64,000 nt of DNA, from positions 112,841 to 176,840 of the forward strand of contig CANCAY010000001.1 in assembly GCA_947374225.1 (NCBI GenBank), read 5' to 3'. Positions 16 through 2,137 of the stretch are shown piece by piece. Every line of letters starts with the position of its first letter. Position 1 is the stretch's first letter. A program made the position numbers and the translations under genes. The DNA is from Chitinophagaceae bacterium (GTDB taxonomy: Bacteria; Bacteroidota; Bacteroidia; Chitinophagales; Chitinophagaceae). The notes beneath the pieces are model-generated. The model did no database searches. It was given only the letters and a program-made list of their open reading frames with translations, and was not told where the DNA came from.

Positions 16-1212
16 TTATTTATTTGATTCCTTAATGTGATGAAATATACTGGTTTGATTGCCAAATATTTTTGTAAACCCTCTAACATCCGCTCCTGTC
101 CATCCTGTATTCATTTCGCCGTACTTACCAAACTTTGCACTCATCAAGTCATTTGGAGATTCAATTCCAATTACTTGAAAACGGTATGGATTTAAATGAA
201 TAAAAACATCTCCTGTTACCTGCTCTTGAGAACTTGTAAGGTAAGCTTCCATATCACGCATTACAGGATCTAAAATTTGACCCTCATGCAACCAGTTACC
301 ATAAAACTGTGCTATTTGATCCTTCCAAGATAATTGCCATTTTGTAAGTACATGTTTCTCTAATGCATGATGCGCTTTTAATATTACCATTGGAGCTGCT
401 GCTTCAAAACCCACACGACCTTTAATCCCAATAATAGTATCTCCTACATGGATATCTCTTCCAATACCATAAGGCCCTACTATAGATTGTATATATTGAA
501 TAGCTTGAGTTGGATGCTCAAATGTTTTTTTATTAACTGTTTTGATTTCTCCTTTCTCAAATCCAATTACTAATTCTTCTTCTTGACCTTCTTTTGTCAT
601 TTGTGTTGGCCATGCAGCTTCCGGTAGCATTCCTTTTGAATTCAATGTTTCCTTACCACCTACACTAGTACCCCACAAACCTTTATTTATAGAATAGGCT
701 GCCTTTTCAAAATTCATTGCAACCCCTTTACCTTTCAAATATTCAATCTCCGCTTCTCTACTTAATTGTAAATCTCGAATAGGTGTCAAAATTTCAACGC
801 CAGGAATCATAATTTGAAATATCATATCAAAGCGAACCTGGTCATTTCCAGCACCAGTACTTCCATGTGCAACCAATTTAGCATCCATTTTTTTAACATG
901 CGCTGCAATATGTAAGGCTTGACTTAAACGTTCTGCGCTCACACTTAATGGGTAAGTATTGTTCTTTAAAACGTTACCATAAATTAAGTATTTAATAATG
1001 CTGTCGTAATAACCTTTTACGGCATCCACTGTGGTATGCGTTTTTACACCCAAAGCATAAGCATGTGCTTCTACTTTTTTTAATTCTTCCTCGGTAAAGC
1101 CCCCTGTATTTACCACTACGCTATGTACTTCTAAACCTTTGTCTTCTGTCAAATACTTCACACAAAACGTAGTGTCTAATCCACCACTAAAACCTAAAAC
1201 TACTTTTTCCAT
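16..1212 (-). CDS. argG: Argininosuccinate synthase
   Basis: Joins citrulline and aspartate using ATP to give argininosuccinate, the penultimate step of arginine synthesis in the cytoplasm. The 398-residue length is normal. The N-terminus carries the PP-loop ATP site (GFSGGLDTTF, residues 8-17), followed by the family's citrulline/aspartate-binding stretch around GSTGAGNDQVRFD (about residues 117-129). It lies 5 bases downstream of a GNAT acyltransferase gene on the same strand, so the two are almost certainly co-transcribed; further arg genes would be expected beyond the left edge. Transcription probably passes through the attenuator-like leader at 1881-2081. The family assignment is firm; the regulation is inferred. 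Confidence 0.97.
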   Translation of the reverse strand: MEKVVLGFSGGLDTTFCVKYLTEDKGLEVHSVVVNTGGFTEEELKKVEAHAYALGVKTHTTVDAVKGYYDSIIKYLIYGNVLKNNTYPLSVSAERLSQALHIAAHVKKMDAKLVAHGSTGAGNDQVRFDMIFQIMIPGVEILTPIRDLQLSREAEIEYLKGKGVAMNFEKAAYSINKGLWGTSVGGKETLNSKGMLPEAAWPTQMTKEGQEEELVIGFEKGEIKTVNKKTFEHPTQAIQYIQSIVGPYGIGRDIHVGDTIIGIKGRVGFEAAAPMVILKAHHALEKHVLTKWQLSWKDQIAQFYGNWLHEGQILDPVMRDMEAYLTSSQEQVTGDVFIHLNPYRFQVIGIESPNDLMSAKFGKYGEMNTGWTGADVRGFTKIFGNQTSIFHHIKESNK

Positions 1213-1217
1213 AATAT

Positions 1218-1865
1218 TTATTTTTTTCTAAACCAGTTCAATAATTTGCTTTGTTTTATTTTCATAAAACGCTCATATAGTTTAGACTTATTTTTAAATT
1301 CCGCTTCCACTTGATCTGGTGTATGTAAACTCTTTGGCTCATATAACATAGCAGTACACATACAATTTTTTCGATCCTTGCTCATTAAAATTTCATAATT
1401 CACACAGTTCTTACAGCCAGCCCAAAATTCTTCGTCGTCCGTTAATTCACTGTAAGTAACAGGCTCGTACCCCAATTCACTATTGATTTTCATAACCGCT
1501 AATCCTGTTGTCAATCCAAATATTTTAGCAGTTGGATATTTCTCTCTTGACAATTGGAAAATAGTCTGTTTGATTTTTTTTGCAATCCCTGTTTTTCTAA
1601 ATGGAGGAGCAACTATAAGTCCACTATTCGCCACAAACTGACCATGCTGCCAAGCTTCTATATAACAAAAGCCAACCCATGTCCCGTCCTCGGTATGCGC
1701 AATTACTGCTTTACCTTCTTCAATTTTTTGTGCAACATATGCTGGACTTCTTTTAGCAATTCCTGTTCCTCTTGCCTTTGCTGAAGACTCCATCTCGTCT
1801 GTGATGGCATTAGCATATGAAATATCGCCACTATGGGCTACACGTACTATGATTTTCTGTTCCAA
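1218..1865 (-). CDS. GNAT-family N-acyltransferase, candidate first enzyme of arginine synthesis
   Basis: A 215-residue GNAT protein. The acyl-CoA-binding stretch is visible around residues 80-100 (SGLIVAPPFRKTGIAKKIKQ), and a Cys-rich stretch (CKNCVNY...CMC, about residues 150-170) follows the core. It sits directly upstream of argG, as in other Bacteroidota arginine clusters, where such a GNAT is thought to acylate glutamate (acetyl or succinyl group). That role is inferred from context. The only plausible start is TTG at 1865: the frame upstream reaches a stop without an ATG, and the next internal Met is residue 25, inside the domain. An alternative is an unrelated acetyltransferase that is merely co-regulated. 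Confidence 0.8.
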   Translation of the reverse strand: MEQKIIVRVAHSGDISYANAITDEMESSAKARGTGIAKRSPAYVAQKIEEGKAVIAHTEDGTWVGFCYIEAWQHGQFVANSGLIVAPPFRKTGIAKKIKQTIFQLSREKYPTAKIFGLTTGLAVMKINSELGYEPVTYSELTDDEEFWAGCKNCVNYEILMSKDRKNCMCTAMLYEPKSLHTPDQVEAEFKNKSKLYERFMKIKQSKLLNWFRKK

Positions 1866-1880
1866 TGATAGATAAAATTT

Positions 1881-2012
1881 AAAAAAATGACACTTCTGGC
1901 TTCAAAAGACAATTTCGGGGCTTTTTCCACTGATAGGGGCAAGTGCCAATTGCTCGTCCTATCAGAATCCACGTCGGTAGAAAGATCTACCCAACTGGGG
2001 CAACCTGATAGG
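1881..2012 (-). promoter_or_regulatory. Attenuator-like leader of the GNAT-argG operon
   Basis: On the minus strand three segments can pair alternatively: CCTATCAG (2012-2005), CTGATAGG (1965-1958) and CCTATCAG (1937-1930). Segment 2 is an exact 8-base complement of both 1 and 3. The 2:3 hairpin is extended by GCAA/TTGC and holds TGGCACTT (1948-1941) in its loop region. When freed, TGGCACTT can pair with AAGTGTCA (1895-1888; one G-U), directly followed by seven Ts (1887-1881). So 2:3 looks like an antiterminator and the last pairing like a terminator. The terminator loop is long, so its strength is uncertain. Confidence 0.55.
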
Positions 2013-2081
2013 GCTGTTCATAACAGGAACAGATGCAGAAATTGCATGTGTCGATAAGATATGTAAGGTTTCCTGTTTCAT
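1962..2081 (-). CDS. Putative arginine leader peptide (39 codons)
   Basis: A short frame on the minus strand opens with ATG at 2081, preceded by AGGAAA, and ends at TGA (1964-1962) with a second TAG one base out of phase. It lies about 100 bases upstream of the GNAT-argG operon. Its C-terminal third contains four arginines (AGG, AGA, then adjacent CGA-CGT; the end reads GRSFYRRGF). The stop codon lies inside the middle of three mutually complementary segments. Clustered Arg codons next to alternative hairpins, ahead of an arginine operon, fit a classical translation-coupled attenuator. I infer this from the sequence; I do not know a described homologue. Confidence 0.6.
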   Translation of the reverse strand: MKQETLHILSTHAISASVPVMNSPIRLPQLGRSFYRRGF

Positions 2082-2137
2082 TTATAATTTCCTGTTGAGG
2101 AATGAGATAGTAAAAGTAGGCAATTAAATAGACAATT

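Follow-up and report, generated by a model that had tools for sequence, protein, structure and literature searches.

A probable ribosome-mediated attenuator with an arginine leader frame and a stop-codon hairpin upstream of GNAT and argG in Chitinophagaceae

Results

The arginine locus

The operon described here lies on the minus strand of a 64,000-nt stretch of a Chitinophagaceae genome, called the window below. Its closest public relatives are Chitinophagaceae, several of them labelled Sediminibacterium. The order on the minus strand is a -7 promoter box, the leader frame, a hairpin named P1, the sequence AAGTGTCA with seven Ts (T7), a GNAT-family acetyltransferase gene starting with TTG at 1865, and argG (Table 1). 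The argG product matched NCBIfam argininosuccinate synthase models at E-values down to 9.8e-88, yet stayed under their cut-offs. The original prediction placed an arginine leader peptide here, with three segments of which the second can pair with either of the others, and every one of its elements was read back exactly where it had been positioned. Segment 2 is CTGATAGG (1965-1958) and segment 3 is CCTATCAG (1937-1930). The leader has the Arg codons AGG (2006-2004), AGA (1988-1986), CGA (1976-1974) and CGT (1973-1971), and its stop is TGA at 1964-1962. A divergent, small predicted lipoprotein-like gene lies at 2274-2591 on the plus strand, with a YHS-domain match (PF04945) of 28.6 bits, under the cut-off of 30.3.

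Table 1. Features of the arginine locus in the window.
Feature	Position	Strand	Basis
-7 promoter box TACTTTTA	2111..2118	-	Bacteroidota sigma-A consensus TAnnTTTG, one mismatch
Arginine leader frame, 39 codons, MKQETLHILSTHAISASVPVMNSPIRLPQLGRSFYRRGF then stop; end SFYRRGF	1962..2081	-	Frame listing, frame comparison, read-back
Segment 1, CCTATCAG, able to pair with segment 2	2005..2012	-	57-nt 1:2 stretch folds at -26.3 kcal/mol
Putative sensor codons CGA-CGT, then GGA, TTC, stop	1971..1976	-	Read-back, frame comparison
P1 hairpin: segments 2 and 3, inner stem GCAA/TTGC, apical loop; leader stop in 5' arm	1930..1965	-	Covariance model, pattern search, folding
TGGCACTT, proposed 5' arm of the terminator, inside P1	1941..1948	-	Read-back, folding
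AAGTGTCA (1895-1888) and T7 (1887-1881), 3' arm of a weak terminator with a long interior	1881..1895	-	Folding, -11.6 kcal/mol
GNAT-family acetyltransferase, first structural gene, TTG start	1218..1865	-	PF00583, E 2.5e-5, above cut-off
argG, argininosuccinate synthase	16..1212	-	PF00764 and PF20979, above cut-off

TAnnTTTG has been described as the sigma-A -7 consensus of Bacteroidota (PMC9723704). Of the 17 close relatives compared, the window's own sequence included, 10 have TACTTTTAC directly 5' of the leader. Among the 98 loci that carry P1 (type A, defined below), an exact TAnnTTTG was found within 220 nt upstream of the hairpin in 55, compared with 11 on the antisense strand, and nearly all of these boxes fall between -170 and -101. 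Since sigma-A -7 boxes stand at the expected distance 5' of P1, the leader is probably transcribed, from a putative start.

A total of 199 GNAT loci was gathered, 186 of them distinct and with at least 300 nt upstream. The extrapolated GNAT start fell on a start codon in 71 of the 199 loci (TTG 53, GTG 13, ATG 5). A weak GNAT start codon, as at 1865 in the window, may therefore be conserved.

Arginine codons next to the leader stop

In a loose test, the last 12 residues of an upstream ATG frame held at least two Arg in 134 of the 186 loci and at least three in 99; the antisense control gave at least three in 21. Type A is made up of the 98 distinct GNAT-upstream loci that were chosen by the P1 hairpin alone and not by the peptide. 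In 97 of these, the frame ending at P1's TGA has at least two Arg codons among its last eight, compared with 0/98 and 7/98 for the other two frames. The Arg codons near the stop, whose conservation in Chitinophagaceae had been proposed as a check, are thus kept. All 98 leaders have an in-frame ATG, GTG or TTG (ATG in 68). The ends of the peptides vary (RRGF, RRGC, RRRPGC, MRCPDC, RPRRVV) and Arg is kept throughout. The last Arg precedes the stop by two codons in 71 leaders, by three in 14 and by four in 11. Lying between promoter and first gene, the leader frame is, by this comparison, probably translated.

A chance frame was ruled out by the frame comparison together with the reversed-pattern control for P1 (see below). 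A programmed frameshift from the leader into the frame that overlaps it (1847-1972, GTG start) is also unlikely, as P1 loops range from 19 to 22 nt in length and so disrupt the second frame in some loci. The leader peptide of the window matched no Pfam family at an E-value of 0.01.

Selection can also be followed at the level of codons. CGA makes up 124 of the 248 Arg codons in the last eight codons of the type-A leaders; among the window's ORFs of at least 250 aa, which have 527 Arg codons in all, its share is 6.6%. A second group of leaders, which has no P1, ends in RRPRx, mostly RRPRI, directly before the stop. Its 33 distinct variants use all six Arg codons at the last Arg and all four Pro codons at the Pro, and 32 of them encode the leading Arg pair as CGA-CGA. 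The use of all six codons at the last Arg argues that the peptide itself is under selection. The enrichment of CGA at the sensing point and the CGA-CGA pair of the RRPRx leaders suggest selection for a slow codon.

Arginine leaders were also found beyond the family. A strict test was passed by 27 of 44 non-family loci, compared with 1/44 antisense; these loci come from a class sample with 82 GNAT genomes outside the family and are mostly the best-scoring ones. Within the family, with three start codons allowed, 106 of 142 loci passed, compared with an antisense rate that was also high (26/142). The failures amount to 17/44 non-family loci and 36/142 family loci.

The P1 hairpin

P1 was compared in 55 aligned loci, where 95.2% of its 12 pairs are standard. 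The inner stem, which lies outside the pattern used for selection, covaries: pair 33:45 is A-U in 29 loci and C-G in 23, and pair 31:47 is G-C in 44, A-U in 6 and C-G in 1. The fourth pair of the inner stem fails in 26 of the 55. The outer stem, CTGAYAGG/CCTRTCAG, is nearly invariant, as is the adjoining ACGAGC. Its variable pair is T:A in 63 of the 98 type-A loci, C:G in 20, T:G in 15 and C:A in none; the other seven of eight pairs are fixed in the aligned set, where the search expression itself set most of those columns. The invariance is more than plain pairing requires, with the same proviso that the expression fixed most of the columns concerned. The hairpin between segments 2 and 3 that was originally predicted is thus strongly supported as a real structure, with a covarying inner stem.

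A search for the stem with its TGDA tail hit 92 of the 294 family genomes; its reversed pattern hit none. A covariance model search for P1 likewise gave 92/294, so no genome with a compensated outer stem was seen at these thresholds. One match of the model (R1), in G248, looks false, as it apparently lies inside a long coding frame. Without it, P1 is present in 91/294 family genomes, which belong to 33 of the 34 genera with a match. The pattern occurs at 95 places. All 84 that were checked by coordinates lie 54-97 nt 5' of a GNAT match on the same strand. The remaining places are three before proC, the false-looking one in G248 and seven outside the coordinate check, of which G191 shows a GNAT start.

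P1 does not appear to be a general part of arginine leaders. Model R1 gave nothing convincing on 51 other sources (44 non-family loci and 7 family loci that are not type A), with three matches at E-values of 0.71 to 3.9. The stop codon is paired downstream in 98/98 type-A loci by construction, in 10/34 RRPRx leaders (control 10/34) and in 15/32 leaders of other classes (control 9/32). This also argues that P1 is not general.

No known riboswitch or leader family was identified: Rfam gave no family at gathering score in the window, and the three matches at 1850-2150 were all far under it and on the opposite strand. Among the matches listed, five other places found with a looser pattern, in G008, G031, G028, G077 and G224, have no frame rich in one amino acid that ends at the hairpin. 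Short palindromes such as CTGACAGGTCTTTAAGACCTGTCAG share the outer stem of P1. Among the matches listed, they were seen in G096, where the looser pattern has 66 places, and similar ones in G064 and G227; counts for this pattern are also high in the family genomes G247 (34), G009 (32) and G233 (20). P1 may be derived from, or convergent with, short palindromic repeats.

A proline version before proC

A second copy of P1 was found in three of the 294 family genomes (model E-values 3.2e-6 to 7.3e-6), each time before proC. These leaders end in VPCPPPGC or FPSPAPGC, so that Pro codons replace the Arg codons on an unchanged stem, CTGACAGG/CCTGTCAG. In the genus, 18 genomes have a proC match; four of these carry the proline version, and another two are unreadable upstream. 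The window genome's own proC has no such leader upstream. By comparison of the leaders, the proC copies are a natural swap of the predicted specificity from Arg to Pro. Nothing else points as strongly to the codons as the sensor.

Segment 1, the terminator and pairing of the P1 loop

In the window, the stretch that pairs segments 1 and 2 would win without translation (-26.3 kcal/mol, compared with -12.1 for P1). When the stretch from nine nucleotides before the stop onwards was left free, the outer stem of P1 formed. When everything up to 12 nucleotides past the stop was masked, TGGCACTT paired with AAGTGTCA ahead of T7. These two states agree with trp logic in the window. The arginine terminator was matched by 10% of 40 shuffles.

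The outer parts of the predicted switch did not extend beyond close relatives. Across the 98 type-A loci, segment 1 is unconserved: a loose CCYRTCAG copy was present in 10, and the longest complement had a mean of 5.9 nt compared with 5.8 nt in shuffled sequence. The T7 terminator was found in close relatives of the window alone. Short canonical intrinsic terminators were not enriched after P1, either in the type-A loci of the window clade (2/17; shuffle mean 1.0, maximum 2) or in the other type-A loci (8/81; mean 4.9, maximum 14), nor were they after RRPRx leaders (6/35; mean 3.6, maximum 8). They were enriched after the Arg leaders of other families (13/32; mean 4.9, maximum 8). Compensatory changes in segments 1-3 and the terminator had been proposed as a check. 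In P1 the inner stem covaries; segment 1 and the terminator are limited to close relatives. Several other families have in common another second hairpin, with CCTACGYGG as its core, after their Arg leader (L121, L132, L147, L118, L153 and L154; CCTACGTAG in L140).

Pairing between the P1 loop and a downstream element reaches further. Cognate loops and elements pair at -9.41 kcal/mol, compared with -8.60 for non-cognate ones (permutation z -4.1, relatedness ignored). One loop position is Watson-Crick paired with the element in 18 of 26 loci, through four pair types, and unpaired in the other eight; the permutation mean was 6.9 and none of 20000 permutations was as high, again with relatedness ignored. 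These data support a predicted loop-to-downstream pairing across clades. No terminator-like T-run was found at loci such as L100, which share a TGGTN element. In one clade the downstream element, GGAYTGGTNAYCC, resembles a small hairpin whose own loop could pair with that of P1.

Absence of ArgR

The arginine repressor ArgR (PF01316) was found in none of the 294 family genomes, the window's own included; 9 of 14 control genomes were positive. In the class it was found in 14 of 247 genomes, 12 of them above the cut-off. Seven class genomes have both a strong ArgR match and GNAT. In all seven, argR is found immediately 5' of GNAT, and the strict test gave no Arg leader before GNAT; two frames upstream of argR pass the strict test and look like chance. 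Weak ArgR matches lie elsewhere in two GNAT genomes, G441 (just above the cut-off, on another contig) and G450 (below the cut-off), and G450 has an Arg leader (L134). ArgR is missing from 233/247 class genomes whether GNAT is present or not. Because of this, it is from position that we infer that the leader stands in for ArgR.

Histidine and tryptophan leaders in the same genome

The window's genome also has a His leader, MTLNKHIHHHHLLSKG (HIHHHH), before hisG (L240) and a Trp leader, MKTINNFWWWHTNSVGVL (WWW), before trpE (L241). Both are followed by strong intrinsic terminators, at -16.7 and -17.7 kcal/mol, compared with -11.6 kcal/mol for the arginine terminator. By eye, the stop of the His leader sits in a stretch complementary to the 5' arm of its terminator. 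Given these two leaders and their strong terminators, the mechanism looks routine in this genome. The original prediction spoke of a lineage not best known for such control. This fits the literature found, but it is qualified by the genome's own His and Trp leaders and by an earlier proposal for Flavobacterium psychrophilum (PMC9723704).

Discussion

The arginine operon is probably controlled by a ribosome-mediated attenuator. An arginine-sensing role for the leader is well supported by the comparisons above, and P1 is likely to be the switch. The codons at the sensing point are those of the pathway in question: Arg in 97 of 98 leaders before GNAT and Pro in four genomes before proC. What stood of the original interpretation was its core, the control of arginine genes by ribosome position on an arginine leader peptide; its hairpin between segments 1 and 2 and its T7 terminator did not hold beyond close relatives. 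This core is strongly supported because the leader is conserved, its codons are under selection, Arg has been exchanged for Pro and ArgR is absent.

In the proposed mechanism, the leader would be translated and charged tRNA-Arg would set how far the ribosome travels. When arginine is short, the ribosome would wait on CGA-CGT just before the stop, leaving P1 free to form. P1 would then keep TGGCACTT from pairing downstream, and the operon would be read. When arginine is plentiful, a ribosome at the stop would mask the 5' arm of P1 and the loop segment would pair downstream. In this genome that pairing would be the weak terminator with T7, and expression would fall; other lineages may use Rho, mRNA decay or translation as the output. 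On a leader free of ribosomes, the 1:2 hairpin could form and give the same off state, in the window and a few relatives. The original prediction found it puzzling that stalling so close to segment 2 should favour one fold. In 71 of the 98 leaders the last Arg stands two codons short of the stop. Given the usual ribosome footprint, stalling on the Arg pair would therefore do no more than abut or fray P1, whereas a ribosome at the stop would cover the whole 5' arm; this is likely to be the trp logic in compressed form.

The same sensor could work with the opposite sign. P1 and its downstream partner would then be the off structure, through termination, Rho access or a blocked translation start, and a stalled ribosome would open it, as in translational attenuation of the erm type. 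This would account for the lack of enrichment of canonical terminators after P1 and for the small-hairpin-like element of one clade, and a ribosome of usual footprint whose A site is occupied by the last Arg codon would overlap P1 at its base. We consider it unlikely, since a ribosome at the stop would open P1 more than a stalled one does, and plentiful arginine would then bring the weakest off state. Another explanation is nascent-chain arrest, in which the RRP or RRG end of the peptide stalls the ribosome on free arginine or a related metabolite and not on uncharged tRNA. The C-terminal residues (RRGF or RRGC, RRPRI) are indeed kept with synonymous change, and Salmonella speF joins a pair of Arg codons with control by ornithine (PMC6386406). 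The CGA-CGA pair of the RRPRx variants is a codon-level preference, however, the upstream part of the peptide differs among clades and the exchange at proC tracks the pathway amino acid, all of which make arrest quite improbable.

It could also be asked if P1 is a protein-binding site or an aptamer and the leader frame secondary, as an outer stem and ACGAGC nearly invariant across 91 genomes and 33 genera might suggest. Such a site would not need Arg codons in one frame of nearly every type-A locus, Arg leaders where P1 is missing, as at RRPRx loci and in other families, or a proline version before proC, and no Rfam family reached gathering score. We regard this explanation as highly improbable.

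For the preferred reading, a ribosome-mediated attenuator with P1 as the on state, a wider picture is possible and is put forward tentatively: P1 and its leader may be a portable, compact module of Chitinophagaceae, with a hyperconserved stop-codon hairpin and loop-to-downstream pairing instead of a canonical terminator, which replaced ArgR and, in a copy re-coded from Arg to Pro, came to control proC. The attenuator would offer an answer to how Bacteroidota without ArgR sense arginine. The same slot before one operon is taken by a regulator gene or by a leader peptide, depending on lineage. The natural exchange of Arg for Pro codons separates codon sensing from RNA structure, and the placing of the stop codon itself within a switch arm makes for a compact, testable design.

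Among the matches listed in the open-licence literature, supplements aside, no leader peptide for arginine biosynthesis or proC was found in Bacteroidota. In F. psychrophilum, of the same phylum, "strong clues" were reported for leader peptides before amino-acid biosynthesis operons; the sections concerned name no arginine case (PMC9723704). Long 5' UTRs of B. thetaiotaomicron have been reported to contain sORFs reminiscent of leader peptides (PMC7366714). Other upstream-frame motifs are named in PMC8632094, none of them, in the sections concerned, in Bacteroidetes. The Pseudomonas carA leader is alike in being a leader peptide at an arginine/pyrimidine gene, but its attenuation is tied to pyrimidines, and gene and phylum are different (PMC4997734).

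The orf34 leader of Salmonella speF works by the same logic. Its short upstream frame has two Arg codons in a row; when arginine is low, a paused ribosome permits a hairpin downstream of the stop to form, and a ribosome that reaches the stop gives another structure (PMC6386406). It differs in that it controls ornithine decarboxylase, acts through Rho and RNase G, and has its Arg pair at codons 12-13, not near the stop (PMC6386406). Its peptide belongs to DUF2618, a family to which the window leader gave no match, and the genes downstream of the window leader are GNAT and argG.

The trp and his attenuators of the Yanofsky type have cognate codons in a short frame and a stop-proximal segment that competes with a downstream structure. 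The arginine leader shares the cognate codons, a stop-proximal segment that is predicted to compete in this way, and the site just 5' of the first gene. In contrast to trp and his, its stop lies within segment 2, its cognate codons mostly stand two to four codons before the stop, it has no strong terminator, and the sequence of its hairpin is nearly invariant across genera.
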